Part shown: positions 4,354 to 32,471 of the stretch, in pieces
Numbering within the stretch: position 1 is the stretch's first letter
Layout: every line of letters starts with the position of its first letter
NCBI RefSeq assembly: GCF_900113615.1
Contig: NZ_FOPZ01000006.1
Span: forward strand, 1 to 64,000
From: Halorubrum aquaticum
GTDB lineage: Archaea; Halobacteriota; Halobacteria; Halobacteriales; Haloferacaceae
Direction of reading: 5' to 3'
Length of the DNA: 64,000 nt
Position numbers and translations under genes: made by a program
The notes under the pieces: model-generated
Told to the model about the DNA's origin: nothing
Database searches by the model: none
The model's input: only the letters and a program-made list of their open reading frames with translations

Positions 4354-4469
4354 ACAGTGTGGTGCTCGCTCTATACTAATCACGATAGCCCGAGCCGGAT
4401 GGACCTCATGGAGGGTACTGTCTGACGTGCTCATCGAGATCGCTAGGTCGTAGATACAGACAGACAACT

Positions 4470-4763: not shown

Positions 4764-4870
4764 ACCTTGGCTTGGTCCATCACACGGATAAAGACCCATC
4801 TCGGGAAAGGTCCTACTCTCGATGATTAATCAACAGAAAGCAACAGTAGCAGGATCTTGTTGGTTAAGTT

Positions 4871-4980: not shown

Positions 4981-5003
4981 ATCAGGGATTATCTGTCGAA
5001 CAC

Positions 5004-5022
5004 CCCTCGTTGCCGCTGTAAA
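5004..5022 (+). repeat. 19-base direct repeat, copy 1
   Basis: CCCTCGTTGCCGCTGTAAA occurs here and again at 5065-5083, 61 bases apart. It lies at the left side of the origin region, beside the orc fragment. Two copies only, so it is not treated as CRISPR. Confidence 0.7.
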
Positions 5023-5064
5023 CATCTCACGGAGAGATGGTATGGTGGATCGAAAGAGATGGAT

Positions 5065-5083
5065 CCCTCGTTGCCGCTGTAAA
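5065..5083 (+). repeat. 19-base direct repeat, copy 2
   Basis: Identical to 5004-5022. A/T-rich DNA of the origin region starts immediately after it. Confidence 0.7.
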
Positions 5084-5084
5084 A

Positions 5085-5758: not shown

Positions 5759-7117
5759 ATGACCACTATGGAAGGCGACGAAACCGACTCGGGGCAGCCA
5801 GATACCGAGTCTGGTGGGTCACAAGAGTCCGGATCATCTGTCGTGGATAGCATCCTCGATGGCGACGTACAGACTGTTTTTGAAAACAAGGACCTGGTTG
5901 ACTCGAGTACGATTGTCGATCAGGATCGGATCTACGGCCGGGACGAGCAACTCGCTGCCGAAGCTCGGGCGTTTCGGGACACTCTCGATGGTGAGCGACC
6001 GCCGGATCTGCTTTTGTACGGTCCCAGTGGTACAGGCAAGACCCTGACGGTGAAAGCCGTCGCGAACAAAGTCAAAGAACGAGCTCAGGAGAGCGGTATT
6101 GAGTTCGACTTTGTGGCAGTCAATTTCAAAACGATGGAGTCCCACACGCTCGACCGCGCTGTGTGGAAGCTAGGCCACCAGACGGCACGGAAAGCGGGCG
6201 TGGTTTGGGATGTACCTCGGTCGGGTGTCTCGACCGATATGAAATACACTCGGCTCTACGAGATTGTCGACGATCACTTCGACTCACTCGTGTTCATCCT
6301 CGACGAGATCGACGCGCTGACCGGCAGTACGGGAGCAGACGAACCGGCGTACTCTCGACTGCTCTATAGTTTGAGCCGAGTCATGTCGGAACAGCATGTT
6401 GATACGCAGCTGTCAACGGTGGTTGTCACTAACTACCCGAAGTTCCGCGAGAACCTTGACAGCCGGACTGACAGCTCGTACAATCCGAACGGGATTCATT
6501 TCTCGGATTACGACGCCAACGAGCTCATCGAAATTCTCGAACGACGTCGAGATGCGTTTAAACAAGACGCCCTCGAAGACGGAGTAATCGAGATCGTGGC
6601 TGCGTACGGTGCTCAAAACGAAGGTGACGCGCGTCGCGCGATCGATCTGCTCCGGGATGCTGGAGAGATCGCGAACCGGGCGGGCGACCCGGTGGTGACG
6701 CAGGACCACGTCAGATCGGCAAACGACTCTGTGGTGAAGAATCGGGTCCTTGAGATCGTTGGTGGGATGTCTGTCCAAAAGAAGCTGTCTCTGTACGCTG
6801 CCGCACTTGTCGCGAAAGAGAATAAGGGAGCGGCTCCGAGCCCTGTGGTGTACGACATCTACAAAATTCTCTGTGAGGGAAGCGACATGGAGATATACAC
6901 ACAAGAAACAGTCAACAGCCACATCAATAAGGCCGGAACGTACGGCGTTCTGGAAAGCGAACGGGTCAGTGGTGGATTCAAATCGGGTGTCCACTTGGTT
7001 TTCAAGTTTACCGAGCCTGTTGGCGCTGTTCTAGATACATTGAGCGAAGACGAGCGACTCCAAGAGATTCCTGCGAAAGAACTTGGGGAGGTCGTGAAGA
7101 GACGGTTGCGGGATTAG
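5759..7117 (+). CDS. orc1/cdc6: Orc1/Cdc6-type replication initiator (orc B)
   Basis: This 452-residue AAA+ initiator is the probable ligand of the iteron cluster directly upstream. An acidic, low-complexity N-terminus (1-45) precedes the ATPase. Walker A is GPSGTGKT (88-95) and Walker B is LVFILDEIDAL (about 177-187). The sensor-2 stretch GDARRAIDLLRDAGEIA (about 290-306) is typical. The C-terminal winged helix is about 330-452. The low identity to orc A suggests a different specificity, fitting two different repeat types. The iterons reach to within about 20 bases of the ATG, so Orc binding should also regulate this gene. Confidence 0.95.
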   Translation: MTTMEGDETDSGQPDTESGGSQESGSSVVDSILDGDVQTVFENKDLVDSSTIVDQDRIYGRDEQLAAEARAFRDTLDGERPPDLLLYGPSGTGKTLTVKAVANKVKERAQESGIEFDFVAVNFKTMESHTLDRAVWKLGHQTARKAGVVWDVPRSGVSTDMKYTRLYEIVDDHFDSLVFILDEIDALTGSTGADEPAYSRLLYSLSRVMSEQHVDTQLSTVVVTNYPKFRENLDSRTDSSYNPNGIHFSDYDANELIEILERRRDAFKQDALEDGVIEIVAAYGAQNEGDARRAIDLLRDAGEIANRAGDPVVTQDHVRSANDSVVKNRVLEIVGGMSVQKKLSLYAAALVAKENKGAAPSPVVYDIYKILCEGSDMEIYTQETVNSHINKAGTYGVLESERVSGGFKSGVHLVFKFTEPVGAVLDTLSEDERLQEIPAKELGEVVKRRLRD

Positions 7118-11620: not shown

Positions 11621-11966
11621 CCTTGTTTTCAGTCCTTATGTATACCAGTTTTCTACCAGGGTTGCCTCTCCGAATTCTCTTGATAACGACACTGAATCGA
11701 TTGTATAGTGACAGATCCCGACGCCTTCTGTGGGTTCAATAGAGTAGTGTATGCCGAATAATGATATCGTCATTTGATTACCTTGTGTAACATCTTATGC
11801 TCTATTCTTACCAGGTTGTTACATAAGACTCCAAGCCTCAATATCACGGGAACAAGATTGAAAACGCTCATTCCGAGTCGACTAGACTATTGAGTGGCTG
11901 GGACTAGCGCAATAATCACGACCAGAAGCGGGTTACTGTGCGTTGTCTCTCCCTACCCACCACGAA

Positions 11967-11974
11967 TTTAAATA
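11967..11974 (+). promoter_or_regulatory. TATA box of the 12088-14075 operon
   Basis: TTTAAATA sits in a C-rich context. Transcription would begin near 11995-12000, leaving a leader of about 90 bases that contains a short open frame (12015-12050). Confidence 0.5.
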
Positions 11975-12014
11975 GCCCTTCCACAAACCAACAAAAGAAC
12001 ACCCACGCGCCGTA

Positions 12015-12050
12015 ATGGATCCACTTTCACCGTGGATTGCCAATTACTAA
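12015..12050 (+). CDS. Possible 11-codon leader peptide
   Basis: ATG at 12015 begins MDPLSPWIANY and ends TAA at 12048-12050. It is the first ATG after the predicted transcription start. It could be a chance frame or a translated leader that controls the next gene. Confidence 0.2.
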   Translation: MDPLSPWIANY

Positions 12051-12087
12051 CACACCTAGTGAACTAGGATCAAATACGAGAAAGCTG

Positions 12088-13182
12088 ATGTCCACTTCGT
12101 CTATCCAGAGCAGACGAGACCTCTTCGACGTCTTCCAGCACACCATCGAGGGTACGTACGACGAGTTGGTGGAAGAACAAGAATTGCAACCCGGGCAGAC
12201 AATGCTCAAGACCTTCCTCATTGAGTCCAATGTCACTCCGGAGGAACTCCACGAGAGAGTGGACATAACAGAGGCTCGCGAGGTTGACTTCGACTTACAA
12301 GAACTCATCATCCAACGCAACGCTACCAAGTACACCTTCTTCCTCGATCACGAGGACTCTCGATTCTGGACGCTCTACACCCTCGAAGAATCCGAGGACG
12401 CAAAGAAAGTCGTCCAAGACATGGTGAGCGGCATCCGCAACGGACTCGACTACACGTGGATGCCGATCGAGCAACAGCGTGAGGTAATGGACATGGGCGA
12501 GTTCCGCGATGTGGGCGTCAGTTACGACGCTGACGACGTGTTCTCCGAGGACTACATCGACGAGAGGCTGGACTTCGGCGATCTCTCGGTGCGCAGTAGC
12601 GGTCGTGGAACCGGAACTCTGTTCGACATTCTCGACAGTCATGACGAACTATCCAGCTTCCTCTCCCTCTCCAGCGTCGGCATCAAACGGAACGTGAACG
12701 GCTCGTTCATTTTAGAGCGAGTAACCCACAACGGACGGTTCACCACTAGTGGAGGGGACTCTATCCAACTCCATCTTGACACCGTTGCTGAGATTAAGGG
12801 GCGATACGCAACGCTTCTGCGGAAGATCGAGGAGAACCACCGGCTCTCCTACGAATCTCAGGAACACGGGACGGGGATGGACGGTACCCCACTCGTGATC
12901 GAACTGGACAACGAGATCGAAGACGTCCGGCAGTTCATCGAGAATATCATTACGGCGAAGAACCCGCTTCGACTCTGGGGTGCGAAGACCAAACTCGATG
13001 ACCAGTACTGGAAAATAAAAGGCGTGGATCTCCACAATAACGACAAATACACCATTGAGATTTGCCCCAAGTGGCTACGACTCTACCTCGGCGACGAGGC
13101 ATGTGGGAACACCGCTCTCCGCATCTACTCGAATCTTCAACGGCACTATGACTCGAACGCTACGATGGAGGTGGAAGAATGA
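12088..13182 (+). CDS. Unrecognised protein paired with a PD-(D/E)XK-like nuclease
   Basis: This 364-residue acidic protein belongs to no family I recognise. A TTG at 12037 could extend it by 17 residues, but the ATG at 12088 (MSTSSIQSRRDLFDVFQ) gives a more protein-like start. The C-terminal third (about 275-350) has IVIELDNEIEDVRQFIENII followed by a basic, aromatic stretch ending KWLRLYLGDE. It overlaps the next gene by four bases (ATGA at 13179), so the two are co-translated and probably form one functional unit. Confidence 0.72.
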   Translation: MSTSSIQSRRDLFDVFQHTIEGTYDELVEEQELQPGQTMLKTFLIESNVTPEELHERVDITEAREVDFDLQELIIQRNATKYTFFLDHEDSRFWTLYTLEESEDAKKVVQDMVSGIRNGLDYTWMPIEQQREVMDMGEFRDVGVSYDADDVFSEDYIDERLDFGDLSVRSSGRGTGTLFDILDSHDELSSFLSLSSVGIKRNVNGSFILERVTHNGRFTTSGGDSIQLHLDTVAEIKGRYATLLRKIEENHRLSYESQEHGTGMDGTPLVIELDNEIEDVRQFIENIITAKNPLRLWGAKTKLDDQYWKIKGVDLHNNDKYTIEICPKWLRLYLGDEACGNTALRIYSNLQRHYDSNATMEVEE

Positions 13183-14075
13183 GTGTGATGGAGAACCTCT
13201 CCGATCACACCCTCCAGATTAATGCGTGGATTGGGCTGTGCCAGCTCGACAGGACGTTCCCCGACGCTCTGCGGAACCTAGGCTACACCGTCGACATCAT
13301 TGATCCGAGCTTTGTCCATGAGGGCGACTCGGTGAATCCAGATTTGATTCTCACCAGCCGCGCCCATAACCATTCTATCATCATCGACTGTAAGTCGTAC
13401 TTCATTAAGGAGGAACAGAACCAGAAGTATGAGTCAATACATCACTCACCCGAAGTCCTGCTGACTCGCGGTATCGTCTCTGCCGCCGATGCCACAGAGG
13501 ACTTCGACGCTGAATTCTCGTACTCATCCTTCGAAGACCTCAACGAAAACCCACACCTACCTGAGAACGATTTTGCGGTCGTTCACTTCGATGAGGACGC
13601 GAACCAGTACATCATTCGGACGCTAGACAACTACGAATTCAATCTCGTTGATCTCCAAGACGAATTTCCCATCTTCACGAACACACGCCGGCTGCCAACA
13701 GACTACTTCCCATTTGACGTGGGGACTGGTGATGATGACTACCGCCAGTTCACCATCAGCATCCTCCAATCCACTGTTCACGTTGCACTCAAACAGAACA
13801 CGTTTGACGCCGACGATCTGCTTGAGAACGCGCACCCGCTGTGGATTGACCTCGATAACAACCTAAAAAACGAGCTACGAGCACACACGGAGACCATCCT
13901 CACGGAGTACCAGCTGCAGGGACTGGATGAACACATCGAGAAAGTTCAGGCAGGGAGAAAAGACGAATGGAGGGTGGTCTCGAAGTCCTTACAGGCGCTC
14001 CAACGGAAGGTGGACGGATTCGTAGATGACGTTCAGGAGAAGTTGGAGCAAACGTCGCTTGACGACTTCGAGTGA
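13179..14075 (+). CDS. PD-(D/E)XK-like nuclease
   Basis: In this 298-residue protein, VNPDLILTSRAHNHSIIIDC is followed by KS (about 50-71). That gives the pattern D-x(n)-D-C-K of a PD-(D/E)XK restriction-type core, with the hydrophobic strand in between. The C-terminal third is helical and heptad-like (about 235-298). The nuclease call is from this motif alone. Tight coupling to the upstream gene and location next to a helicase/methyltransferase locus suggest anti-phage or anti-plasmid activity; DNA is the likely substrate, inferred. Confidence 0.62.
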   Translation: MSVMENLSDHTLQINAWIGLCQLDRTFPDALRNLGYTVDIIDPSFVHEGDSVNPDLILTSRAHNHSIIIDCKSYFIKEEQNQKYESIHHSPEVLLTRGIVSAADATEDFDAEFSYSSFEDLNENPHLPENDFAVVHFDEDANQYIIRTLDNYEFNLVDLQDEFPIFTNTRRLPTDYFPFDVGTGDDDYRQFTISILQSTVHVALKQNTFDADDLLENAHPLWIDLDNNLKNELRAHTETILTEYQLQGLDEHIEKVQAGRKDEWRVVSKSLQALQRKVDGFVDDVQEKLEQTSLDDFE

Positions 14076-14258
14076 CTATCAAGCAGCGCTAACGTCTCGG
14101 TTTCCACGGCATTGAAGAACGACTTGACCGAAGGATCATCTTGTAGGGTCGCTGAGCTCATCCACCTCAGCATTCACCCTGCTCTTTGGTGTGCTAATCG
14201 TTCTATGACACCCTCTCTACTAAACACTAAGTTGCCTCCCCGTGATCCTCTTTCCTAA

Positions 14259-17200
14259 ATGATCTCTCTCCCTCCAATCGTCGACAATGCTGATAGGACG
14301 GTCGAAGACGTCTACAAAAAGATAATCCCACAGACCGAAGAAGCACGTATCGCTACTGGCTATTTCTATCTTTCCGGTTTCAATCTGTACCGCGAGGATC
14401 TCGAACAACTTGCTGACCCTGATGAACTCGGTCATGCTCCCATTCGTATCTTGATGGGCCGGCAGACGAATCGGAGTACAGCAGATGAGATTGGGGACGG
14501 ACAAAATCTACGCAGTAATCTCAAAGATGAGGTTGAAGAGAGTATTGAGGAGCTGAATAACGCCCAATTGGGGCGGTTGGATCGGCTACGAGATTTCATA
14601 GCAGAAGATCAGGTTAGCGTCCGCGTGCGAAATCCAGAAAACGGATACTTCCACGCCAAAGGGGCCTCGTTCAGAGCCCCACGCGACGATGATGACTGGG
14701 CGACTGAAGACGATACAGACACACGTCCATGTGCGACTGTCGTCGGGTCGTCGAACTTCACGGCTAGCGGACACCGGAACAACATTGAACTGAATCTCAC
14801 GAGCCAGGATAGGCGCGAGGCGGAGGCGTTCGAAAGTTGGTACGACAACCAGTGGGCGAATGCCGAGGACTTCAGCGAAGAGATCATCCGGGTCATCGAG
14901 AACAGCACGAAGTATCAGGACTGGCAGGAGCAACAAGAAGACGATTCTGATGACGACGAGACACCCGATGACCTAGGGACGTACATCGAACCGTTCGAGC
15001 TGTACAAGCTCCTCGCGTACGACGAATTAAGTGGGAACGTCAACATCCGCGACAGTCCGCTGTACTACTTCCAGACGCTCGGGTACGAAAGCGCGAAAGA
15101 GAAGCTCTCCCAGTTCAACGGCTGTATCATCTCCGACTCGGTCGGTCTCGGGAAGTCCTTCATCGGCGGCGAGCTCCTCCACGACTACCGCCAGCGTGGA
15201 GACCGTTGTTTACTGATCGTGCCAGCGAACCTCACCGAGCAGTGGGAAGACCTCCTCCAAGACGACACGGACGAAGACGGCAATCCGTACTTCGGTCTCG
15301 AAGTTGATGGAACGCACCTCGACGTAATGAGCATCAGTAAGTTCCAGAATCTCGCGTACGACGAGGTTCAAGACCTCAAAGAAGCGTTTGACGTTGTACT
15401 CGTCGACGAGGCCCACCGGTTCCGGAATCACGGGAAGTGGCGACCGACCCCGGATCACGACGACGACTACAAGGGAACGCGTCGCCACGCCAACCTCCGT
15501 CAGCTCCGTGGCAAGACGATGATAATGCTGACGGCGACGCCGATTAACAACTCTGCGACCGACTTAGAGAACTTGATCAGCCTGTTCACTAGCCCCGAAG
15601 AACTGCGAAATAAGGCGTCGTTAGACTTCGGTGCCTTCGAAGAGTACATCGAACTCTCTGAGACTCGGAAGAAGATCGCCGCCGGGAAAGAGGAAGCTAG
15701 TGACCAAAAGCTACAGAGTATCACCGAGCAACTCCAGCGCCATTCAGAGGAGATCTCGAAGATTCTGAACGAGGTGATGGTACTGCGGACGCGGAAGCAC
15801 GTCAAAGACCAGATCCAAGACGAGGAGGACTTCGAGATGAGCTTCAAGCCGCCGACGCTCAGCAAGGAGCAGTATTCGCTTCCTCCGGCGTACCAGCCGG
15901 TGTATCGGATGCTGCCGGACGTGATGGACGCACTCCATCTCCCGCACATTACGGTGAAGAACCCGAAGGCAGGCGGGACGCTGAAGGCGCTGTACAAGCT
16001 GAACCTGCTCAAGCGGCTGGAGTCGTCGACCTACGCGTTCGTTCAGTCGATCCAGACGCTACACCAGAGCGAGCGGCGGCTTCTCGGGCTTCTCGATGGA
16101 CTCCCCGAAGAGAAGGAGATCGACCTGTTGCGGGCGGCCCAAGACGAGGAGCAGGCGGAGACGCTCGACGACTTCGTGGAAGGAGACGACGCCGCCGAAG
16201 ATCTCGAACAGACGCTCGAAGAGTTCGGGTTCGACACGACCGCGGTTCGTGCGGACGAAGACACGGAGACCGACGCGCCGGACGAATTGGCGGACGCGAC
16301 AATCGGTGAGGTGAAGACGTACATCCGAGAGGACCTGACGCTGATCGCGTACTTCCTCTCGCAGTTCATCGGCGATATCGCACAGGACTCCGGCGACGTG
16401 AGCGACCAGGCCGTTTCAACGAGGCAGTGGCTTCACGAGCACAACGCCGGTGTTCTTCCCGACGTTCCAGAGGAGGAGCTGAATCCGATCCTCTACCCGC
16501 GGAGCGATCTGAGTGACGTCGACGGTGCGACTCGCGAGTTCTACGAGGCGGTGTTCTCGCTCCGGGAGTTCCGCGATCCGAAGGTCGAGCGGCTCACGGA
16601 CGTTCTCAACGGCTACGACGACGAGAAAGTCCTCGTCTTCACGCAGTACCGCGCTACCGCGGACTACGTCCACCGGACGCTGCTCAACGATCCCGACTCA
16701 CCGCTCACGGAGGCGAACAGCGCGGTCGTCAAAGGCGGCGACGACAACAAACAGGACGTCATTCAGCGGTTCGCCCCGGAGGCGTCGGGGTATCAGCAGA
16801 CGCTCGCCGAGTCCGGCGAGGACGAACTCCAGTACGTCATCGCGACCGACACCCTCTCAGAGGGGGTTAATCTCCAGGACGTATCGGTCCAGATCTCCTT
16901 CGACCTGCCGTGGAACCCGATGCGGATTGTTCAGCGCGTGGGGCGTATCGACCGGATCGGGAGTACCGACGAGAAGTACGTCCACAACTTCTACCCTGAC
17001 GGTGACATCGAGGCGGCGATTAAGCTGCTGAAACGGCTTCAGGCGAAGATCAACGACATCGCGCTCATCGTTGGCAAGGAGAACAACATCCTCGATCCGA
17101 ACGAGGACCAGATCTTGGAACAGACCGGCGTGGAGACGGAGAAGACGATCGGCGAGCTCCAGGTGGACGAGATCGAGGACTCGCTACAGAAGTCGCGGGA

Positions 17201-18071
17201 GGTTGAGGACATCAACGAGCTCGACGACACGAGCAAGAACCCTCTCCTCCGCAACGCTGGGAGCAACGAACACGCTGCCTACGAGCGGTTCCTGCTCAAG
17301 AAGGAGCTGAACGAGGAGTTCGGGCTCACCGAGGACGATTTCGAGTACGCCGCGGACTACTTCGAGGAGTCGCCCGCGGAGCGTGAGCGCCTGTACACGA
17401 ACGTCACGGACCACGACTCCGGGCCGCGTCCGGGCGTGTTCGGGCTCGCGCACCTCTGGTTCGACGACGACGATCACGAGTCTCCCTTGGGTCGCGTTCG
17501 GCGGGCCTTCTACTACAAGCCGTTCGGGGACGAGGTGAAGGAGCGTCCCGTCGGCACGCTCAAAATCGACCCCGAGGTGAGGGGCGAGCCGATCTCGGGT
17601 GACGCCGAGAGCGTCCTGTCCAACCGAGATGCGATTCAGGAAGTCCTCGACGAGCGGCTGGAGGCGATTCGGGAAGGCCAGGTAGAAGGCGCGTTCAAAC
17701 AGGGCGACTCGTTCTCGAAGGAGCAGGAGACGATTCTGGATTTCATCGCGTACCATCTACAACCGAACTACGGGGAGAAGTCGGTCCCTGCGGAGGAGTA
17801 CGACACGCTCGATGAGTGGGCTGAGAGCCTCAGCGAACGCCTCCAAGACGTGAAGTTAGCCAACACCGACGAGGATCGGATCCTTCGAGAGACATTCCGA
17901 GACACGACGGAGTACGACTCGTTCCCAGATTGGCCGCCAATGGAGTTCTTAGATGAGTTAGAAGCGTTCTTAAAAGAGAACGTAGAGGAGTCGACGGAGT
18001 ATCAGGATACGCTCGTGGGTGAAAGTGAGGTTCAGGCTCGACTGATGTGTTGGGGAGTGGTCAGTTCATAA
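14259..18071 (+). CDS. PLD-domain SNF2-type helicase
   Basis: This 1270-residue protein starts with a phospholipase-D-like nuclease domain: FHAKG at 131-135 and VVGSSNFTASG at 161-171 form an HxK...GSxN signature. It continues as a superfamily-2 SNF2/RapA-type ATPase. The Walker A region is SDSVGLGKS (292-300), the DEAH box LVDEAHR (381-387), motif III LTATPINN, and motifs V/VI run around 860-910 (ATDTLSEGVNLQD, then QRVGRIDRIGS). A long acidic insertion lies near 610-690. Related PLD-helicases are found with DNA methyltransferases in DISARM-like and BREX-like defence loci. It ends only 10 bases from the stop of the convergent methyltransferase. It should move along DNA and may cut it. Confidence 0.92.
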   Translation: MISLPPIVDNADRTVEDVYKKIIPQTEEARIATGYFYLSGFNLYREDLEQLADPDELGHAPIRILMGRQTNRSTADEIGDGQNLRSNLKDEVEESIEELNNAQLGRLDRLRDFIAEDQVSVRVRNPENGYFHAKGASFRAPRDDDDWATEDDTDTRPCATVVGSSNFTASGHRNNIELNLTSQDRREAEAFESWYDNQWANAEDFSEEIIRVIENSTKYQDWQEQQEDDSDDDETPDDLGTYIEPFELYKLLAYDELSGNVNIRDSPLYYFQTLGYESAKEKLSQFNGCIISDSVGLGKSFIGGELLHDYRQRGDRCLLIVPANLTEQWEDLLQDDTDEDGNPYFGLEVDGTHLDVMSISKFQNLAYDEVQDLKEAFDVVLVDEAHRFRNHGKWRPTPDHDDDYKGTRRHANLRQLRGKTMIMLTATPINNSATDLENLISLFTSPEELRNKASLDFGAFEEYIELSETRKKIAAGKEEASDQKLQSITEQLQRHSEEISKILNEVMVLRTRKHVKDQIQDEEDFEMSFKPPTLSKEQYSLPPAYQPVYRMLPDVMDALHLPHITVKNPKAGGTLKALYKLNLLKRLESSTYAFVQSIQTLHQSERRLLGLLDGLPEEKEIDLLRAAQDEEQAETLDDFVEGDDAAEDLEQTLEEFGFDTTAVRADEDTETDAPDELADATIGEVKTYIREDLTLIAYFLSQFIGDIAQDSGDVSDQAVSTRQWLHEHNAGVLPDVPEEELNPILYPRSDLSDVDGATREFYEAVFSLREFRDPKVERLTDVLNGYDDEKVLVFTQYRATADYVHRTLLNDPDSPLTEANSAVVKGGDDNKQDVIQRFAPEASGYQQTLAESGEDELQYVIATDTLSEGVNLQDVSVQISFDLPWNPMRIVQRVGRIDRIGSTDEKYVHNFYPDGDIEAAIKLLKRLQAKINDIALIVGKENNILDPNEDQILEQTGVETEKTIGELQVDEIEDSLQKSREVEDINELDDTSKNPLLRNAGSNEHAAYERFLLKKELNEEFGLTEDDFEYAADYFEESPAERERLYTNVTDHDSGPRPGVFGLAHLWFDDDDHESPLGRVRRAFYYKPFGDEVKERPVGTLKIDPEVRGEPISGDAESVLSNRDAIQEVLDERLEAIREGQVEGAFKQGDSFSKEQETILDFIAYHLQPNYGEKSVPAEEYDTLDEWAESLSERLQDVKLANTDEDRILRETFRDTTEYDSFPDWPPMEFLDELEAFLKENVEESTEYQDTLVGESEVQARLMCWGVVSS

Positions 18072-18081
18072 TAGACCCATT

Positions 18082-21000
18082 CTACAAGTGTTCTTCTGAT
18101 AACTCAGTGTATTTTGAATTCACAAGATCAAAGTAGTCATCATCCATCATACGCGGATTCTCTACTTGGTGGAAGTCATTTAGAACGAACTCTACTTCGG
18201 ACTGGTCTAAGCCATACGCATGGAAGGCGGCAGCATCAATTTCGGATTGGATTTCACGACGCTCTTGGTTATCTGTCGCTGGTTCTATCCCTCCTAACCG
18301 CTCACGCATTCCTTCAAATTTATCTCCATAGCAGTTCAAGCGAGCAGCTCGTTTGCTAATGTATTCGAACCACTCATCGCCTGCGGCGAGACGAGGCATC
18401 TGAGATTCTTCAAATCGGAATGCTAGCAAGTTTTGAGCATCTTTTGTTCTCATCAGGAAATCAAACGGAATGCTATTACAGAGCCCTAAGGCAGCGAATA
18501 GTTCCTTATCAGTAAATATCCGATCATATGCCGAATGTAAGTTACCTTCTACAGTATCTTCTTTTTGAACATTCAGTTCAAATGGACGAAGAGTATAAAC
18601 AGAATCTACGGTCACGCTACCGGTCGGGAGTACAGCAGAAATGACGGTTCTTTCGTTAGTGGGGTTTGATATTTTTCGAAATACAAGCCGGTACTCAGAT
18701 CCGTCCAGCTTGACGTCAGCATTCTCTAGTCCCCTTCCTCTATTTTTCTGAAGTAAGTCATTTACAAATTGCTTCTGCGATCCCGAGCCATCAAACGCAT
18801 CATAAACGGCTCTTTTCAGTTTTCTAATATTTCGCTCTCTGATTCGCTCCTTCGCGCTTTTCACGCCATCCACCTCTTTTTCAACGCCCCACAGTTTCTG
18901 CTCTTCAATATCATCAAAGAACTCGTTATCATATGAATACTGATATATGTTCTTCCCCTCAAAAATGGGGTAATCTCCGACTTCAGCATCTTCGGTGTAG
19001 CGATCATTATCATATCCCTTCCTCAGTTCATAATAGACATCAGCATACCAGTCGTCTCCGTGCTCTTCTCCGATAGGAGGCCATTGAACAATCTTCTCAA
19101 TGACGTCTAGCTCGTCTTTGGACCGGATATTCGGGAAACTGCGTGCTTCGGGAGAATATTTAACCAATATCTCTTTGGAGATCTCTATGGCATGTTCTGA
19201 AATATTGCGAAGAATGTTAACATTATTCTGTAAGCCAATACCGCTAACACTCTGTGTCTCTCCTCCAGATTTGAAGACCGCAATATTGAATTTGTACCGA
19301 TCATCAACATGAGAAAATATTCCTTTATTTTCGAATCCGACAATCGATTGTACTGTATTCTTGTTTAGAAGCTCCATTCGGAGATCTTTGCCCATTGCGC
19401 CACTAAAGACGACATTTGGGAGTATTAACGAGATAAGTGATCCGTCTTGTGTGAGATTGAAAATCCGCTCAAAAAAGAGAGCAGACAAGTCATTAGGAAT
19501 CGGTTGTTTTGTGCCACCGACTACAGGCTGTTGAAGATTGTACTCTCCACTCTTCTTGTAGTATTGTGCTTTCTTTTGGGTTCTTTCTTTGTACTTTTCC
19601 CAATTTTCACTTACTAATGGATCGTCCAGCAAATCATTCTGCTTTGTCTCTTTTTGTTTACTAGGTAGTGAAGAGAAGGTCGGTTCATATTCAACAAAGA
19701 ATTCATCTGGATTTGCCTGAATTTGATCCCAAGGGGGATTGCCGATAATAACGTCAAATCCACCGTCCTCGTAGACTGTAGCGAATTCCAATACCCAGTG
19801 GAATGGATGGTATTCTTGAATATGTTCAAGAGTCAGATCGTCAACATCCGCATCTTCGAATTGTTCCAGTATCTTCTTATCTAACTCTTCACTGTGATTC
19901 TCAATTTTTTCTTCTGCGGCGTTACGCCATTTTGCTGCTTCTTTCCCGGAGTTAGCGTGTTGGTGTTTTTTAACAGCCTCAATAACGCCGTCATATAGCG
20001 AGTGTACGCTCTCACCTACACCGCCACCATAATTGGATAACTGCGCATCTCCGTCGTTTGCTGTTTCTACAAGTTCAGTAAACCCGATAAGCGAGTTCCC
20101 CTGCCGGATGTTGAAATCGATGTTCGGGAGCGGTTCGACCTCGCTGGGCTCATCCTCGATGTCCGCGACCATCGAGAGCCAGAGGCGGAGTTTACAGATT
20201 TCGACGGCGCCCTCGTCGATGTCGACCCCGTACAAATTGTTCAGGATGACCGTCCGCTTCGCGTACAGCGACGCTCCGCCCTGCCCCTCGTTGATCGTCT
20301 CTAACTCGTCACGGGTACGAGACTCCAACTCCCAGCCTTTCCCCTCCGCTTCGAGCTGCTGGAAGTACTCGATACACTGAATGTAGATGTCCACCAGTAC
20401 GTCCTGCGCGGCGAGCAGGAACGCGCCGCTCCCGACCGCCGGGTCGAGGACGTGCGCCTCCTTCAGGATGTCGTGGTACAGCGTCTCGACGTGCTTCGTC
20501 TCCACGTTCTCGGTGGCGGCCTGCTGCGTCATCGTCCCGCCGTCCGCGACTGCCGTCTCGCCCTCGGCGGCTTCGAATTCGGGAAAACCGAACACGTCGT
20601 CGATCTCGTCGTACTCGGCGTCGACAGCGTCGTTGAGTTGATCGAGAAGGTACGGATGGATCGTCCGGCGAGACATGAAGCCGGTGATCTCTTCGGGCGT
20701 GTAGTACGCGCCCATCTCCTTCTGGTTGACCGTCTGCTCGAAGATGTGACCGAGTATCGCCGGTGAGAGGTTCTTCGGGTCGACGATATCGAGCCGCTCG
20801 TCCACGTTCCAGTTCCACCCCGACAGGAACTCCAAGACATCATCGAAGAGATCGTTCGTCTCCTCGGCGGACGCGCCGAGCTTCGCGTCTGGGAACTCCT
20901 CCTCGACGGGATTCTTCGCGAACAGCCCGCCGTTCAGGTACGGCAGGCTCCCGAACTCTGGGTTCTGCTTGTCCTCCGCGAGATAGTCGAAGAACAGCGG

Positions 21001-21687
21001 CCGGTAGAAGTTCTCGTACCGATCCTCACCGTCATCGACGACGTCGCCGGGCTGTTCGTGGAGGTAGTTCGGATTCCGGTCCAGCAGGCGCTTTTCCTGG
21101 ATGAAATACAGGAAGATCATCCGGTCGAGGATGACCTGGACGTACCGCTGCTTCGCGTCGCCGCGATCGTCGGGGATCCCGGACACCTCCTGAACGAGGT
21201 TCGTCCGAAGTTCCTCGAACTCCTCGTAGAACTCCTTTACGACCTGCTGGGTATCGTACAGCGTGTCGTAGATCGCGGCGGAGGAGCCGTACTCGATGGA
21301 GTTGAGCTTCTTCAGAACGGTGTTCTTTTCGCCGCTGTCGCTCGTGAACTGCTCCTTGGTAAACGAGATCTTCTGGTGCTTGATGCGCCCGTGCTGTTGC
21401 CCTTCCCAGCTACGCATCCGGGTGAGGAAGGTGAACTCTTCAAAGTCGTTCGTGGCGACGAGGTTCGTGTGTCGAGATCGGTTGTCCGGCTTGAAATCCG
21501 TCGCCGTCTCACCAGGACCCGCGTTGACGAGTACGACGAACTCGTCATCGGCGAGCTGAAGGACAAGTTCGTTGTCCTCTCCGAGGTTTTGACGCGGTTT
21601 CAGTCCGCGCTTCTCGAAGGAGTCGGCGATATCTTGGAGGGAATCCCAGCCTGCGATATCTTTCGCAGTAATCTGCTGGACTGACAT
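18082..21687 (-). CDS. Large adenine-type DNA methyltransferase (Eco57I/PglX-like)
   Basis: This 1201-residue N6-adenine-type methylase shows the usual order. A helical N-terminal domain comes first, then KEMGAYYTPEEITGFM (about 325-340), SAM-binding motif I VLDPAVGSGAFLLAA (about 410-425), YGVDIDEGAVEICKLRLWLS, and catalytic motif IV VIIGNPPWDQ (about 647-656). A long C-terminal target-recognition region runs to the end. Such proteins act in BREX (PglX), DISARM and type IIG/ISP systems. The start at 21687 (MSVQQITAKD) is chosen because an upstream extension to 21756 is unlike the family. Base composition changes sharply near 20095: the 5' part is GC-rich and the 3' part AT-rich, so the specificity half has probably been replaced by recombination. 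Confidence 0.93.
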   Translation of the reverse strand: MSVQQITAKDIAGWDSLQDIADSFEKRGLKPRQNLGEDNELVLQLADDEFVVLVNAGPGETATDFKPDNRSRHTNLVATNDFEEFTFLTRMRSWEGQQHGRIKHQKISFTKEQFTSDSGEKNTVLKKLNSIEYGSSAAIYDTLYDTQQVVKEFYEEFEELRTNLVQEVSGIPDDRGDAKQRYVQVILDRMIFLYFIQEKRLLDRNPNYLHEQPGDVVDDGEDRYENFYRPLFFDYLAEDKQNPEFGSLPYLNGGLFAKNPVEEEFPDAKLGASAEETNDLFDDVLEFLSGWNWNVDERLDIVDPKNLSPAILGHIFEQTVNQKEMGAYYTPEEITGFMSRRTIHPYLLDQLNDAVDAEYDEIDDVFGFPEFEAAEGETAVADGGTMTQQAATENVETKHVETLYHDILKEAHVLDPAVGSGAFLLAAQDVLVDIYIQCIEYFQQLEAEGKGWELESRTRDELETINEGQGGASLYAKRTVILNNLYGVDIDEGAVEICKLRLWLSMVADIEDEPSEVEPLPNIDFNIRQGNSLIGFTELVETANDGDAQLSNYGGGVGESVHSLYDGVIEAVKKHQHANSGKEAAKWRNAAEEKIENHSEELDKKILEQFEDADVDDLTLEHIQEYHPFHWVLEFATVYEDGGFDVIIGNPPWDQIQANPDEFFVEYEPTFSSLPSKQKETKQNDLLDDPLVSENWEKYKERTQKKAQYYKKSGEYNLQQPVVGGTKQPIPNDLSALFFERIFNLTQDGSLISLILPNVVFSGAMGKDLRMELLNKNTVQSIVGFENKGIFSHVDDRYKFNIAVFKSGGETQSVSGIGLQNNVNILRNISEHAIEISKEILVKYSPEARSFPNIRSKDELDVIEKIVQWPPIGEEHGDDWYADVYYELRKGYDNDRYTEDAEVGDYPIFEGKNIYQYSYDNEFFDDIEEQKLWGVEKEVDGVKSAKERIRERNIRKLKRAVYDAFDGSGSQKQFVNDLLQKNRGRGLENADVKLDGSEYRLVFRKISNPTNERTVISAVLPTGSVTVDSVYTLRPFELNVQKEDTVEGNLHSAYDRIFTDKELFAALGLCNSIPFDFLMRTKDAQNLLAFRFEESQMPRLAAGDEWFEYISKRAARLNCYGDKFEGMRERLGGIEPATDNQERREIQSEIDAAAFHAYGLDQSEVEFVLNDFHQVENPRMMDDDYFDLVNSKYTELSEEHL

Positions 21688-21827
21688 ACATATTGGGACA
21701 CCCGTTACTTGTATGAAAGTATGGGAATCCTCTGCTAATGTCCCAATCTTAAGCATTTCAACGGAGCCAGATTTATCCTAATTGAACAACCCGAACTATC
21801 AATTAGCCCGCTAGATACCACTCAGAG

Positions 21828-22643
21828 ATGATGGACGAAACGACCGCTCGTAAGCTCCTCTCGGAGATCGACAAGCCGACAGAGCCAACGCTTCAAGAGC
21901 TACAGGAGATGGCGATCGGAAGCGTCGAGACGGTCCTTTCGGACGCTGGGTTCCCTACCCGAGAGGAGGTCAACCGGCGACTCTCATACACGTTCTACTA
22001 CGACTGGGAGACTGACGATCCGGACATCGTCCTCCTCGTTCAGGACCCCGGAAACCTCCATGAACGTCACCTGTCGGAACTGCGTCCGCAGAACCCACTC
22101 ACCGGCGAATGTTCGGCTCGCGACCAGATCGGCGTCTACCGCGAGTTTGCCAAGAGCTGGCTGACCGGGCGAAACGCCGACTTCGCGGAGCGTTTTTTCG
22201 AGACGCTCGCCCGTCACGATCTCATTTCGCTCCCGAACGGCTGGCACCAGTACGTCGAATCCGGGCAGTTCTATCGAGACTTCTACCTCGGCGACGTCGT
22301 GAAGTACCGCGTCGACGGTTTCGGAGTTGCCGCCGAGCGCGCCTCGTATCAACACCTCCTCAAGCAAGAACTCCGGGCGTTGGATCCAGAGCTTGTGATC
22401 ACCTTCGGCGGAAACGCGTGGCCGGCACTCCGACGCTCGACTGCACCCGAACCCGTCGTGGATACCGACGCCGACCCCGAGAGCATTATGTCCATCCATG
22501 GGACACTCCACCGAATCTCCGATCCGGTCGATACCCACGTACTCCCGCTGGCTCACATGAGTGGGCAGGTCTGGTGGCGGTTCCCACCTGACGAGTACAT
22601 CTCGCGACTCAGCAAGGCGCTTGAACTTCTCGAACGTCAGTAG
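21828..22643 (+). CDS. Uracil-DNA-glycosylase-like protein
   Basis: This 271-residue protein has the layout of the UDG superfamily fold: a first-strand motif DIVLLVQDPGNLHERH (about 66-81) where family-4/5 enzymes have GEAPG, a central ELVITFGGNAWPALR (about 190-204), and a late VLPLAHMSGQVWWRF (about 239-253) where UDGs have HPS. The catalytic residues are therefore unusual, and the base removed, if any, cannot be stated. It is divergent from the methyltransferase (140 bases apart) and probably belongs to the same defence locus, where a glycosylase could attack modified phage DNA. That role is inference. Confidence 0.65.
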   Translation: MMDETTARKLLSEIDKPTEPTLQELQEMAIGSVETVLSDAGFPTREEVNRRLSYTFYYDWETDDPDIVLLVQDPGNLHERHLSELRPQNPLTGECSARDQIGVYREFAKSWLTGRNADFAERFFETLARHDLISLPNGWHQYVESGQFYRDFYLGDVVKYRVDGFGVAAERASYQHLLKQELRALDPELVITFGGNAWPALRRSTAPEPVVDTDADPESIMSIHGTLHRISDPVDTHVLPLAHMSGQVWWRFPPDEYISRLSKALELLERQ

Positions 22644-22861
22644 CGAAAACGACGGAGCCTGACACGCATCGTCTCGATATGAGATAGCGACTCAACTGAT
22701 TGTGGGCAGTCACGTGTTTGGGCGGACTACATGGCGAGATAGGGGCCGTAACCCCGAAACGTAGTACTACGGTTGAGTGCCAGACAGTCTATGAGATACT
22801 CATGTTGATCAGTACGTTATGTTAGAAGTTGCTGTGGAGGGCGCTGTCTGGTTAACCACGG

Positions 22862-27616: not shown

Positions 27617-29203
27617 CTACGAAATTGGTACTTCATCTGGCCTATCAACCAACGATCTACCCTGTGCTCGCGAGTCGATTTCTGAATCGATCTCTCGCAT
27701 AAACTCGTCAACAGTATTTCCCATAAGTATCACGGGTCGACCGTGATCGAGCAGCCGGTCTAACACGGCTTCTGGATCGGCGTCAGCGTCTATCTCCGTG
27801 ACCTCGCACTTCGTTTCTTTCGCGAATACGGAACTGTCACTACCCATCACGTATCCAGCATCGATGATCCCCTGGTCAGCAAGGTGATCGAAGTACGAAA
27901 CGAAGGAGGCAGTTCGACCGCGTCGGTCTGGCCGCAAGAATACAAATGGTGTGATACGATCAGAGTTTTCAAGAGCTTGTCTAACCGCTTCAGTACTCTC
28001 GACGTCGTTCACCTCTGCTGCATTAAAAACGAGTCCATTCGGGACAGTAGTCCATGCCGGCTGAATCTGCTCGAGATACGCTCGGATCTCATCCGAAGGA
28101 ACAGGGGATTCACCGACAGCTGTAAGAGTGTGGTTCACCGCATGAGCTGTCTCCGCTCCAAGTAGCCCCTCGTGCTCTTCTGGGATTGCTACTTGTTCGA
28201 TCGTTGCCTCCGTGGCCGTGATCTCACGTTCCAGATACTCATAGATGACCGGATGCTGTTCACCGCACACGATGTGGGCTTTAGGCGGAACTGATTTGGC
28301 AAACGACCGTGCGATCTCGGCTCGGGTTTCGCCAAGCGTGTCCTGATGATCACGCCGGATATTAGTCAGAACAATAACATGAGGATCTAGGAATGATTCG
28401 TTAATCAAACGTGTCGTGTACTCCGTAATACCTTGATTTTCAAAAATTGCGACATCTTCAGGGGAATATTTCGCGAGCTTGGGGACATACTCTCGAAAAA
28501 CGTCGATATTCTCATATAGGGTCGTTCTGGGTCCTTCGCGGTTCAACGGGACTACACCACCGTTGTGGATCAGGTGGGGTTGATTCCCAGTGATTTTTGT
28601 TAATGTGTCATATCCCCGCCGCCTAAACACGTCGTCAAGTCGGCGAGTGGTCGAAGATTTTCCACGAATGCCAGAGACAACTATCCGCGTGTCTATCTTC
28701 TGGATCGTCCGACGGTGTTTGAATCCCCGAATTGGGAGCGTAGCTAGGGAACGAAGCGCCGCCAGTACGGAGGTTGAGCCGACATCAAATGCTGATGATT
28801 GTTGGTTCTGGTTCCGAAGGAGGAACGCGGTTTCTGTAACGCTGGCAGCCGCACAGAATGACGTGGCTGCCGTCACAGCATTGGATTTGGCCTCGTATGT
28901 CGCCGTCGATCGCGCAAGTACATTGTCGCCATCAACAAGCACCCACTCGTACTGGCCGCCATTATTGACGGTCATACACTGTACGTCAGTAACCTGGGTA
29001 CTCGCCTGAGAACCATTGAATTGTTGCTCCGGCAGATCTTCGACGACAGATGCCGCTGCCCGGACGTGATTGACTGCCGATCGAGCCTGTTCGGGTGAAG
29101 AAAACGTCTCTGTAGACTGGCTTAAGACGAGACTGTTGGTTCGCAATCGCCATCGCCACCCCGCAGAGGTATCATACACCTCGAACCGGCTATCACGGGT
29201 CAT
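27617..29203 (-). CDS. pgsB: Poly-gamma-glutamate synthase PgsB/CapB-like with N-terminal DUF1508-type repeats
   Basis: In this 528-residue protein the C-terminal part is a Mur-ligase-like amide ligase: the P-loop VSGIRGKSSTTRRL is at about 176-189, and FENQGITEYTTRLINESFL and VIVLTNIRRDHQDTLG (about 275-292) are as in PgsB/CapB. These enzymes join glutamate through the gamma-carboxyl with ATP at the inner membrane face. The first 135 residues hold two repeats with RFEVYDTSAGWRWRLRTNS-type sequence, resembling the YegP/DUF1508 domain; this addition is not part of bacterial PgsB. It is the last gene of the operon and overlaps pgsC by ATGA. Confidence 0.9.
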   Translation of the reverse strand: MTRDSRFEVYDTSAGWRWRLRTNSLVLSQSTETFSSPEQARSAVNHVRAAASVVEDLPEQQFNGSQASTQVTDVQCMTVNNGGQYEWVLVDGDNVLARSTATYEAKSNAVTAATSFCAAASVTETAFLLRNQNQQSSAFDVGSTSVLAALRSLATLPIRGFKHRRTIQKIDTRIVVSGIRGKSSTTRRLDDVFRRRGYDTLTKITGNQPHLIHNGGVVPLNREGPRTTLYENIDVFREYVPKLAKYSPEDVAIFENQGITEYTTRLINESFLDPHVIVLTNIRRDHQDTLGETRAEIARSFAKSVPPKAHIVCGEQHPVIYEYLEREITATEATIEQVAIPEEHEGLLGAETAHAVNHTLTAVGESPVPSDEIRAYLEQIQPAWTTVPNGLVFNAAEVNDVESTEAVRQALENSDRITPFVFLRPDRRGRTASFVSYFDHLADQGIIDAGYVMGSDSSVFAKETKCEVTEIDADADPEAVLDRLLDHGRPVILMGNTVDEFMREIDSEIDSRAQGRSLVDRPDEVPIS

Positions 29204-30417
29204 GTATCTATCTCTCGCGACGTTTCATTGTCGAGTGCGGCAGCATCTTGGGTATTGTCAGGCTGATTAAAAATAGATCGATCAGAAATTGCTTCTTCGT
29301 CGGGTTTTCGGATCGTTCGCCACTCAGCATATCCGAAGCATACAGCGACGATGCTCAGGCCGATTATTATCTCAGTGAGACCAAATTGGCGGGGGAATCC
29401 CCTCGGGAGGACCGCTCCGGTGAGTCTGGTCAAGCACAGCAAGAAGACGAACGATCCAAACTGAAGGGGGACGAACAGGCGTCGAATAGCCGGCTGTGCG
29501 ACGTGAACGTTGTACGCGTTTACCCCCGCTAAGATACCGACAAAGAACGCTGAAAGACCACGTGTAATCCCCAGTTCAATCGACAAGGGTATGGCTGTGA
29601 CGATTCCAACCGCTGCGCCAATACCAACGAGCACACGCCCATATAACAACGAGGAACGGTGGACCACTTGTACGGCGATATATGAAATGACGATTAGACA
29701 GATGTATAGATAGATGAGCCGACGGTCAGCGAGCGAAAAGATCGCGAGCAAGGCTACCGAAATCACACCAATCCGAATGTCGTACCGCTCGCGGACACGC
29801 TCTGACAGGAGCATTCCAACCGCGAACAACAACACGGTTACAAGTCGAGGGAGGATGACCGGCGATAGGGGCTCAGTGACGGCGACACCTTTCCAGGTTG
29901 CCACATCTGCTGTACGCGAGTAGAGCGTAACGGGGGCGGCAGTCGCAAGTGTGGGTGCGAACTCCGCTGAGACAAGAAACCATCCAAGCCCGAACAAACA
30001 TACGAACACTACCGCTGCGGTCAATAGATCCCAATAACGGGTCTCGTCATCAAGCTGGTGATAGTTGTATGCGGCAAGGCCAGGCAGAATACTCCCGATA
30101 AACACAACAGTCTGGAAGAGATCTTGGATGAGAAAGCCGAATGTCAGGAAGATTGTGACTGGTATCAGGCTACCAATCAAGATCGCGTAGATCAGTTCAG
30201 CCCGGCCGTAAATCAACGTCTTGTCCTTCAACAGCCCGAGTCCAAGATACGCGACGGCACTGCTAAGAACGTAGATTGGGAGCATTACAAAGCTTTTGAG
30301 CGTGTACACGGCGAGAATCGGTATCGCAATCGTACCGCCAAGTCGGTACCCATACACCTGTGTCAATCCCGCCACTGCGAGGAGCCCGAACGCGGTGACG
30401 ATGACAGCGACGATCAT
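29200..30417 (-). CDS. pgsC: Poly-gamma-glutamate export protein PgsC/CapC-like
   Basis: This 405-residue multi-pass membrane protein has about ten or more hydrophobic segments. The opening AFGLLAVAGLTQVYGYRLGG and the later ITRGLSAFFVGILAGVNAYN match the CapC pattern. PgsC works with PgsB in synthesis and with PgsA in export of the polymer. It is larger than bacterial PgsC (about 150), as in other archaeal versions with a duplicated membrane domain. It overlaps genes on both sides (ATGA), so the operon is tightly coupled. Confidence 0.88.
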   Translation of the reverse strand: MIVAVIVTAFGLLAVAGLTQVYGYRLGGTIAIPILAVYTLKSFVMLPIYVLSSAVAYLGLGLLKDKTLIYGRAELIYAILIGSLIPVTIFLTFGFLIQDLFQTVVFIGSILPGLAAYNYHQLDDETRYWDLLTAAVVFVCLFGLGWFLVSAEFAPTLATAAPVTLYSRTADVATWKGVAVTEPLSPVILPRLVTVLLFAVGMLLSERVRERYDIRIGVISVALLAIFSLADRRLIYLYICLIVISYIAVQVVHRSSLLYGRVLVGIGAAVGIVTAIPLSIELGITRGLSAFFVGILAGVNAYNVHVAQPAIRRLFVPLQFGSFVFLLCLTRLTGAVLPRGFPRQFGLTEIIIGLSIVAVCFGYAEWRTIRKPDEEAISDRSIFNQPDNTQDAAALDNETSREIDT

Positions 30418-32471
30418 TGCCAGCGCACCTCGCCGTCAACCGGGATTGTGCGAATAGTTGCCCCCGATGGACCTCGAATGGTATCGAACTGCCTGCCGCC
30501 TTTGACATCAGCCGGTTCCCACTCAACGAGACTTAACGAGTCAAACGCCGCCCGCAGGACATTGACACCGTCAGGCGGACTCAAGAACAGGAAAACATCG
30601 ATATGTGTGGCATCGACAGGACGCTCTAATTCAACTGAGAAGTTAGCCCATTCACGCTCTGTCGGCGCCAGCGACGTTTCCTGTGATTGGAACGAACTCC
30701 CAGATGTATCGTCGTACCACGAGACTAGTAGGCGAAGCTCTCCATCCGCGTTCGTTCGGTATGTTCCTGACAGTGTGAACTCCTCATTGGAAACTGGCAG
30801 ACGGTTCCATGGCGACAGTAATGCTCGATTCTCGTTTGCTCGAACACGGACAAGTTCGATCCCGCCAGAATCGTTCTGGCCAATCGGTTGGTCACTATTA
30901 CGTGATTCACGACCGTAGCGCCACAGGGTTCCCTCGTACGCGTCGCTGTCAACATCGTGATCATCGAACGATCCGGTAATGAATCGTTCACGACCGACCT
31001 GTACTGAGTCATCAGAGTCAGTAATCCACCCACGCACTCTGCGTTGGATTCCACCATCGAGCGTTAATTGTTCTTGTGGGGGCCGTTCGACACTAGGCTG
31101 GTAGGTTAGTGTATCATCAGCGATCGTGAACGAACTGTCTGAGAGTCCGGCGAGTTCCCATGTCAGCCGGTTTCGGAGTGGTCCGGTCACGCCCCGTGGA
31201 GCGTACCCTTCAATGAGGATCGGTTCCGCTCGTGCGGACTGTATTCCGTTCGGAGTAACAGTCACCTGTAGGACGAACGATCGATACGTAGTCCACAGGT
31301 TTTGGTCGAAAAAGAGATTACCCATCGACCACGCGATCAGCGCGCCGTCACGGGTCTCAAGTCCTCCCGACACGTGTGGGTGATGGTTTACTACTAAGTC
31401 TGAGCCAGCAGCGATCGCGGTATCAGCCAGATCTTGAAGTTCCTGTGTAGGCGTCCGTTGGTACTCCTCGCCGCCGTGAATCTGTGTCACGACTACATCC
31501 GCACGTTCGGTCGCAGCCTGTACGCCGGCACGGATCGTCTCGGGCGTCGCTTCAGCAACCCCCGCACGATCCTGGACTGTGAGAGTTTCGCCGTCACGAT
31601 CGACTGTGTACGTCGCAGTCGTCTCATCAGCCGCCCAGTCGCGGTCATACTGTCTGCCTGCCGTCGTCGTTGCCGAAACGAAGCCAACGGTTACCCCATC
31701 ACGTTCGAGAACGGCTGGGGAGATAGCGGTGGAAGGCTCCAAACCGGCGCCGGAGTGAGCAACCTCGGCTTCATCGAGAGCTGTAACTGTCTCTTCGAGC
31801 CCCGGTGTGAGAGCATCGAAGGCATGTGTGTTCGCAAGTGCCGCGTAATCGATGCCGGCATTAGCCATCGCCGCTGCAGCGACGGGATGGCTGGTGAAAA
31901 CAAACGTCTTCGACGGGTGTCGCCATTCTGATGTCGTTAGCGGCGTCTCAAGGTTTATCGATGTAATGTCTGCGTCCCCAAGGAGCGGCGAGACCGAATT
32001 GAGCAATCGGTCATGAGAATCACGGCGGTCACTTGGTTGTAACCGGTAGTAATATCGAAGCGGGTCGTCTCTTGGTTCGTAGTACCGCCGTCCAAACATC
32101 GCGTCTCCACCAAACGCTAAGCTGACTGCCCCCTCTCCCGACTCTAGTGTGATGTTCCTCGTCGATCCTGGTGAGAGTGCCCTCGTAACTGAATTGTACT
32201 CTTGGTGGTCGAAGCGAACCCAAGCTGGGAAGCTACCGAGAGAAATGTCATATGACCCATCAACATCGGTGGTAGTTTGTGCGATTTCGCTGCCGTTTCG
32301 ATAAGCGGTCACCGACGCGTTTGATAGCGGATCATTCTCTGTGGTGACGGTCCCAGTAGCTGCCGTCTTGTCGCCATCGCTATCTGAGACTATTTTCCGA
32401 AGTCGCTTAGAACATCCAGCAAGAGAGGCCATTCCAGCGGCTGAAAGCCCCAAGTACCCTCTTCTATTCAA
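30414..32471 (-). CDS. pgsA: Poly-gamma-glutamate protein PgsA/CapA-like lipoprotein
   Basis: The 685-residue product begins with a lipoprotein signal: RR near the start, a hydrophobic stretch and LAGC at about 16-19, giving a lipid-anchored extracellular protein. A carboxypeptidase-regulatory-like beta domain follows (about 38-110). The CapA metallophosphatase-like domain is about 113-420: SLAFGGDAMFGRRYY, TSINLETPLTT, VVNHHPHVSGGLE and AWSMGNLFFDQ. The C-terminus (about 480-685) looks like a beta-sandwich carbohydrate-binding fold. It is the first gene of the operon. The start codon is TTG at 32471, supported by an A/T box about 25 bases upstream. PgsA is needed for polymer transport or attachment. 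Confidence 0.9.
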   Translation of the reverse strand: MNRRGYLGLSAAGMASLAGCSKRLRKIVSDSDGDKTAATGTVTTENDPLSNASVTAYRNGSEIAQTTTDVDGSYDISLGSFPAWVRFDHQEYNSVTRALSPGSTRNITLESGEGAVSLAFGGDAMFGRRYYEPRDDPLRYYYRLQPSDRRDSHDRLLNSVSPLLGDADITSINLETPLTTSEWRHPSKTFVFTSHPVAAAAMANAGIDYAALANTHAFDALTPGLEETVTALDEAEVAHSGAGLEPSTAISPAVLERDGVTVGFVSATTTAGRQYDRDWAADETTATYTVDRDGETLTVQDRAGVAEATPETIRAGVQAATERADVVVTQIHGGEEYQRTPTQELQDLADTAIAAGSDLVVNHHPHVSGGLETRDGALIAWSMGNLFFDQNLWTTYRSFVLQVTVTPNGIQSARAEPILIEGYAPRGVTGPLRNRLTWELAGLSDSSFTIADDTLTYQPSVERPPQEQLTLDGGIQRRVRGWITDSDDSVQVGRERFITGSFDDHDVDSDAYEGTLWRYGRESRNSDQPIGQNDSGGIELVRVRANENRALLSPWNRLPVSNEEFTLSGTYRTNADGELRLLVSWYDDTSGSSFQSQETSLAPTEREWANFSVELERPVDATHIDVFLFLSPPDGVNVLRAAFDSLSLVEWEPADVKGGRQFDTIRGPSGATIRTIPVDGEVRWQ

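Follow-up and report, generated by a model that had tools for sequence, protein, structure and literature searches.

The window, that is, the whole 64,000-nucleotide stretch of Halorubrum aquaticum contig NZ_FOPZ01000006.1 analysed here, carries on its minus strand (18,082–21,687) a chimeric gene for a gamma-class (Eco57I/PglX-like) N6-adenine DNA methyltransferase of 1201 amino acids, as classified from Pfam and fold matches. Very probably, the C-terminal half (C-half) of this gene, a cassette of about 2.0 kb, was replaced by two-sided recombination, while relatives of the gene switch by inversion at the same joint. As far as sequence comparison can carry the argument, the mosaic, its limits and the recurrence of such replacements in sister lineages are established. 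The search for relatives covered 391 genomes of the class Halobacteria, one genome per species; genomes, contigs and loci are designated below by G, C and L numbers.

The sequence-only reading had described the gene as a compositional mosaic with a break near 20,095, close to the motif IRQGNSLIGF, and both statements hold. In 1-kb steps the GC content is 0.60 at 20,001–21,000 and 0.41–0.44 at 18,001–20,000, and 300-bp windows place the fall between 20,200 and 19,900. The GC content at third codon positions (GC3) falls from 0.84 to 0.39 at a change-point in codon 535, with a 2-lnL interval of codons 530–536 (20,080–20,098) and a log-likelihood ratio of 126, compared with a permutation maximum of 8.2. 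This change-point lies inside the block IRQGNSLIGF (codons 527–536, 20,080–20,109, minus strand), whose alignment columns are invariant. The resident N-terminal half (N-half), codons 1–530 (20,099–21,687, minus strand), has a GC3 of about 0.84 and mostly 81–94% nucleotide identity to Halorubrum relatives, whereas the replaced C-half, from about codon 536 to the stop (18,082–20,082, minus strand), has a GC3 of about 0.39 and a nearest relative found at 53% amino acid identity. GC3 change-points at codons 532–535 also occur in L012, L022, L026, L028, L029 and L033, and that of L011 lies at codon 510.

The replacement is delimited most clearly by the comparison with H. saccharovorum (L065). Blastn aligns 11,882–18,058 at 95% and 20,075–22,770 at 90.6%, with a single 112-bp match in between, so that the replaced segment, as defined by blastn and the 3'-end alignment, extends from the terminal codons of the helicase gene, which is convergent with the methyltransferase gene, to codon 538 of the latter (18,059–20,074, minus strand). 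The C-halves share about 50% identity, while the locus is collinear on both sides at 90–99%; at the protein level the helicase is 95% identical, two more genes 99% and a uracil-DNA-glycosylase-like (UDG-like) protein 94%, and the whole methyltransferase 70%. Two further relatives, L069 and L070, with N-halves 88–91% identical to that of the window, lose nucleotide homology at 20,095 (L065 at 20,075), and in all three it returns only at about 18,058, inside the helicase gene. Binned identity to Halorubrum relatives is 81–94% up to about codon 520 and mostly about 45–69% thereafter. Moreover, the N-half protein is up to 93% identical across genera, and C-half identities are nearly all about 45–53% (89 genomes plus plasmid matches).

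A comparison of the trees of the two halves, which the sequence-only reading had called for, gave incongruent results: in the approximately unbiased (AU) test, the data for codons 1–430 reject the C tree (p = 3e-46) and those for codons 540–1201 reject the N tree (p = 2.8e-7). The opposite outcome, homologues sharing the break along one consistent tree, was not observed, since the one close homologue with a similar break (L011/L069) has an unrelated C-half (nucleotide identity about 50–60%). In addition, Halorubrum sp. PV6 (L070) is, by its identities, a clear mosaic, with a window-like N-half and helicase and a plasmid-type C-half. Its N-half is 83–93% identical to that of the window and 68–81% to that of L047, a plasmid lineage, and its helicase mostly 81–97% and 67–87%, respectively, whereas its C-half is 47–63% identical to that of the window and 85–95% to that of L047 (92% overall). 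The tree conflict, the sharp limits of homology and the C-half of PV6 support the earlier proposal that homologous recombination at a conserved motif replaced the specificity half.

As regards what was exchanged, the SAM (S-adenosylmethionine)-binding motif I, DPAVGSGAFL (codons 415–424, 20,416–20,445, minus strand), lies within the N-half, and the catalytic motif IV, NPPW (codons 650–653, 19,729–19,740, minus strand), within the C-half, both being invariant in 20 homologues. Motif I (DPAxGSGxF) ahead of motif IV (NPPY/W) is the order of the gamma class, and Pfam matches Eco57I (2.7e-28) together with N6_Mtase and MmeI_Mtase. A fold search with the predicted model returned CamA, M.BseCI, BrxX/PglX, MmeI and M.TaqI. 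The start at 21,687 is backed by homologues (N-termini MSVQQITAKD and MTLQQITASD), while the start of the longer open reading frame at 21,756 is unsupported. In Salmonella PglX the motif is recognised by the C-terminal domain (PMC11341690). Since motif I precedes the break and NPPW follows it, the exchanged part comprises catalytic motif IV plus what is presumed, by analogy with PglX, to be the target-recognition domain, rather than recognition alone, and the likeness in fold and motifs to PglX/MmeI/M.TaqI-type enzymes suggests that a C-half swap would change the recognition site.

In many relatives, many of them on plasmids, a second, partial copy of the gene, from codon ~433–487 to the C-terminus, lies head-to-head with the full gene. 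In about 15 haloarchaeal loci one N-half is thereby combined with two C-halves and a tyrosine recombinase of its own. The arms are edged on the N side by a perfect inverted repeat, which in a first group (I) measures 54 bp (codons 436–453) and in a second (II) 27–63 bp from codon 487 on; past the repeats the DNA is only about 77–89% alike, and beyond codon 531 most of it is unrelated. The repeats are mostly identical within a locus and differ between loci. Group I DNA was found on nine plasmids of five genera. Both orientations occur in nature: L047 and L049, from the same genus, have flanks 98–99.6% identical and oppositely oriented N-halves, the C-half active in one being silent in the other. 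In the plasmid NZ_CP100003.1 of Halorussus vallis (G383 contig C4), two copies of the locus, L072 and L107, have flanks without a difference over 9778 bp on one side and 99.99% identical over 7540 bp on the other. They differ by an inverted segment of 1467 bp, itself identical at 1467 of 1467 positions, the overlap being exactly the 54-bp repeat; either the locus was recently duplicated, or the assembly gives the two states of a single locus as separate copies. In all 18 loci that have a second or silent C-half, a tyrosine recombinase (PF00589, 222–258 amino acids) is encoded immediately past the distal C-half, whereas a recombinase of this switch type was found at none of the 17 loci with one C-half (single-C loci; Fisher test, 2e-10). 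From its sequence organization, the methyltransferase family has a programmed specificity switch, and the complete linkage (18/18) points to the adjacent tyrosine recombinase as the probable catalyst of the inversion.

Several observations accompany the switch loci. In L042 (9313–10857, G302) the N-half frame ends just past the 27-bp core in unrelated DNA, the distal C-half and the recombinase are intact, and further fragments of C-halves are found some 10 kb from there, an arrangement that looks like an OFF state. L059, on the Natrinema sp. DC36 plasmid NZ_CP084475.1 (G375), forms a palindrome of roughly 3 kb in which two C-halves enclose two partial N-halves placed back to back; one of the C-halves is interrupted, an IS6 transposase being annotated there. 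The same recombinase family occurs convergent to longer PglX-like genes with an apparently single C-half (L098, L099, L100 and L106), and other copies (L101–L105) lie beside other genes; the copies that accompany other PglX-like genes are more distant ones. Contig ends at the 54-bp repeats were dropped as proof of mixed populations, since short assembly k-mers break there too, and a short motif common to cores I and II is not claimed as the recombinase site because codon constraint explains it equally well. An integrase near L069 was rejected as a switch recombinase, as it belongs to a different family.

The window locus itself differs from this arrangement, which is defined by a second C-half, inverted repeats and a recombinase: no silent C-half, long inverted repeat of the switch kind or switch recombinase was found there. 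The positions of crossover core I (codons 436–453, 20,329–20,382, minus strand) and core II (codons 487–499, 20,191–20,229, minus strand) have no second copy in the window. It could be supposed that the window gene is the frozen product of the inversion switch, with the recombinase and the silent cassette lost later, given that a switch is present in the family, that it acts in the same region of the N/C joint and that the loci of group II lie near the N-half clade of the window. Nevertheless, this is improbable. Switch crossover takes place at codons 436–453 or from codon 487, with later codons travelling with the C-half, whereas in the window the N-type composition and the N-lineage identity reach codon 530, so that the break (530–536) lies downstream of both cores. 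Furthermore, the window and L065 have a common single-C order with the UDG-like gene (94–99% identity) and no recombinase, yet different C-halves, which places the exchange between them in a single-C locus. On these two grounds, the C-half of the window was most likely exchanged by ordinary two-sided recombination. Breakpoints vary within the conserved block of codons 487–536, as homologous recombination predicts.

Some points weigh against the replacement. Of the 35 full-length homologues, 34 have a C-half richer in AT than the N-half (mean GC3 0.68 for the N-half and 0.52 for the C-half), and as this is a family trait the composition break by itself is no proof of import; being weak evidence alone, it counts only together with the homologue comparison. 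The GC3 break of the window gene is the second largest among the 35, extreme and not unique. No close donor of the C-half was found in the 391 genomes and 72,556 plasmids (best match 53% at the amino acid level), so that the exchange is visible from the recipient side only, and no viral contig carrying it could be confirmed. The predicted structure is middling (predicted local distance difference test score, pLDDT, 69; predicted TM-score, pTM, 0.47), falling below a pLDDT of 50 around the joint, which makes the domain boundary uncertain. On the side of the switch, a single mixed locus may have been assembled as the two H. vallis copies; even then two orientations would coexist.

The AT-richness of the C-halves in 34 of 35 relatives would also fit an account without any replacement, in which diversifying selection drives very rapid evolution of the recognition half, with drift to AT-rich codons. 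Target-recognition domains are known to diversify. This account is nonetheless highly improbable, given that the boundary is sharp, the data of each half reject the tree of the other, the C-half of PV6 is 85–95% identical to that of a distant N-lineage, and the flanks and N-half of the window are at the same time mostly 92–99% identical to those of L065. An assembly chimera, conceivable in a draft genome of 40 contigs, deserves hardly any credence, since the 1201-codon frame is intact across a joint that lies in a conserved block, and L069, L070 and others independently show the same kind of joint.

Under the replacement reading, the methyltransferase would work with the HKD-SNF2 helicase encoded next to it as a probable restriction-modification or defence pair. 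The cassette of about 2.0 kb would have been replaced whole by two-sided homologous recombination, with one junction in the near-invariant block of codons 487–536 (here 530–536) and the other where the convergent helicase gene ends. In relatives, the dedicated tyrosine recombinase would invert the 1.47-kb N-half between two C-halves at the perfect inverted repeats. The presumed outcome would be a new recognition sequence and, with it, a renewed barrier to viruses and plasmids. In PV6 a switch-type C-half, or a close relative of one, sits in a fixed locus, the direction of transfer being one that we infer. With about even chances, in our estimation, the switch loci would form a mobile, plasmid-spread, non-BREX reservoir from which homologous recombination carries C-halves into fixed defence loci, that of the window among them; if so, programmed switching and population-level allele swapping would draw on one common pool of specificities. 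Two probable routes to a changed restriction specificity come together in one enzyme family: between strains the recognition half is replaced slowly, and within a cell line it is exchanged fast by inversion, both acting near the same conserved protein joint. Moreover, the archaeal switch is directly testable, given its short, exact crossover sites and the natural strains found in each of its two states. No earlier description of an archaeal specificity switch of this kind was found in the literature searched, most subscription papers lying outside the search.

The closest precedent is the invertible PglX of Lactobacillus BREX (PMC7513527). The switch-type relatives resemble it in having a full and a partial methyltransferase copy, a site-specific recombinase and a specificity half exchanged at run time. 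They differ in being archaeal, with no PglZ nearby and an HKD-SNF2 helicase as partner, and in that their recombinase is located beyond the distal C-half and it is the N-half that moves, with exact 54-bp cores (codons 436–453); the window gene itself, unlike Lactobacillus PglX, has no switch. By the tests run, the window system is not BREX, since its methyltransferase scores 73.5 bits against the NCBI curated cut-off of 500 for BREX-1 PglX and pglZ is absent from the locus. The window genome (G000) has only a weak PglZ match, on another contig (C13), with none beside the switch loci and no match at all in G147, G197, G087, G293, G338, G025 and G296. Nor is it DISARM by the tests run, as the helicase scores 140 bits, below the curated DrmD cut-off of 610, and no protein with an MZB domain (DrmB, DUF1998/MZB) is encoded on the window contig C6, the matches in G000 being on C1 and C15.

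BREX-related (BR) Type-2 systems combine an HKD-endoDNase and Swi2/Snf2 helicase with an N6-methyltransferase, DUF499 and DUF3780 (PMC12839542). The window pair is alike in that an N-terminal HKD nuclease with SNF2 helicase (14,259–18,071) adjoins an N6-methyltransferase. Membership is not claimed because DUF499 is absent from the locus; it had no match in G000, G071, G012, G147 and others, and elsewhere lay on other contigs or far away. The terms recombinase, inversion and phase variation do not occur in the main text of the BR Type-2 paper (PMC12839542). Movement of target-recognition domains between methyltransferase genes has been described in Helicobacter pylori (PMC3983042) and as Domain Movement (PMC3077401), and is known from Type I S and Type III M genes. 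In the window gene, too, sequence of the recognition domain was apparently swapped by recombination with the remainder of the gene kept, and incongruent half trees were found together with a sharp breakpoint, the marks of domain movement. It differs in that the whole C-half, including motif IV, is swapped in a single-polypeptide haloarchaeal enzyme. Inversion of hsdS in Type I restriction enzymes, e.g. in Streptococcus pneumoniae with PsrA (PMC4948785, PMC7096588), is likewise a recombinase-driven inversion that changes methylation specificity, as is proposed for the switch-type relatives, whereas hsdS is a separate specificity subunit, bacterial, with another recombinase and other repeats. 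The halovirus phiCh1, as cited in PMC8371274 (Klein et al. 2012), provides a haloarchaeal phase-variation system yielding protein variants; its subject is a viral adhesion protein and not a methyltransferase.

Two further observations concern the relatives of the window gene. In the N-half, identity between L065 and the window falls from 92–93% to 78–84% after about codon 334 (codons ~334–460), and L065 has a GC3 change-point of its own at codon 346; this drop is probably a second, older exchange. Also, the window C-half is 50–52% identical to the C-halves of a paralogous family of 1220–1320 amino acids (G334, G028, G253 and others), equal to the values within its own family, and the N-halves of the paralogues are much less similar to that of the window. 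C-halves may cross between non-orthologous enzymes.

Regarding the neighbouring genes, all on the plus strand, the partner gene (14,259–18,071) encodes an HKD (phospholipase-D nuclease) plus SNF2 helicase of 1270 amino acids (Pfam PLDc_2, SNF2 and Helicase_C; PADLOC HKD+Snf2, 6e-78), and a gene of this kind is convergent with the methyltransferase in most relatives. At 13,179–14,075 lies a gene for a 298-amino-acid protein with a possible PD-(D/E)XK motif (PDLIL...IIIDCKSYF), 98.7% identical in L065; it had no Pfam match and did not turn up in the vicinity of other copies of the locus. At 12,037–13,182 a 381-amino-acid protein of unknown function is encoded, 99% identical in L065, and for both proteins membership in the system is uncertain. 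The UDG-like gene (21,828–22,643) occupies the place where invertible relatives hold the silent C-half, and since it lies at the same place in L065, with 94% identity, the single-C layout predates the C-half exchange. Farther away, an operon on the minus strand (27,617–32,471) includes a gene for a 528-amino-acid protein (GIRGKSSTTRRL...) which by eye resembles Mur-ligase-like/CapB-type polyglutamate synthesis. At 3,163–7,117 and 36,674–37,279, two Orc1/Cdc6 genes and a tyrosine integrase of another family, together with an IS110 transposase gene (215–1,261), suggest a plasmid-like or integrated replicon region.

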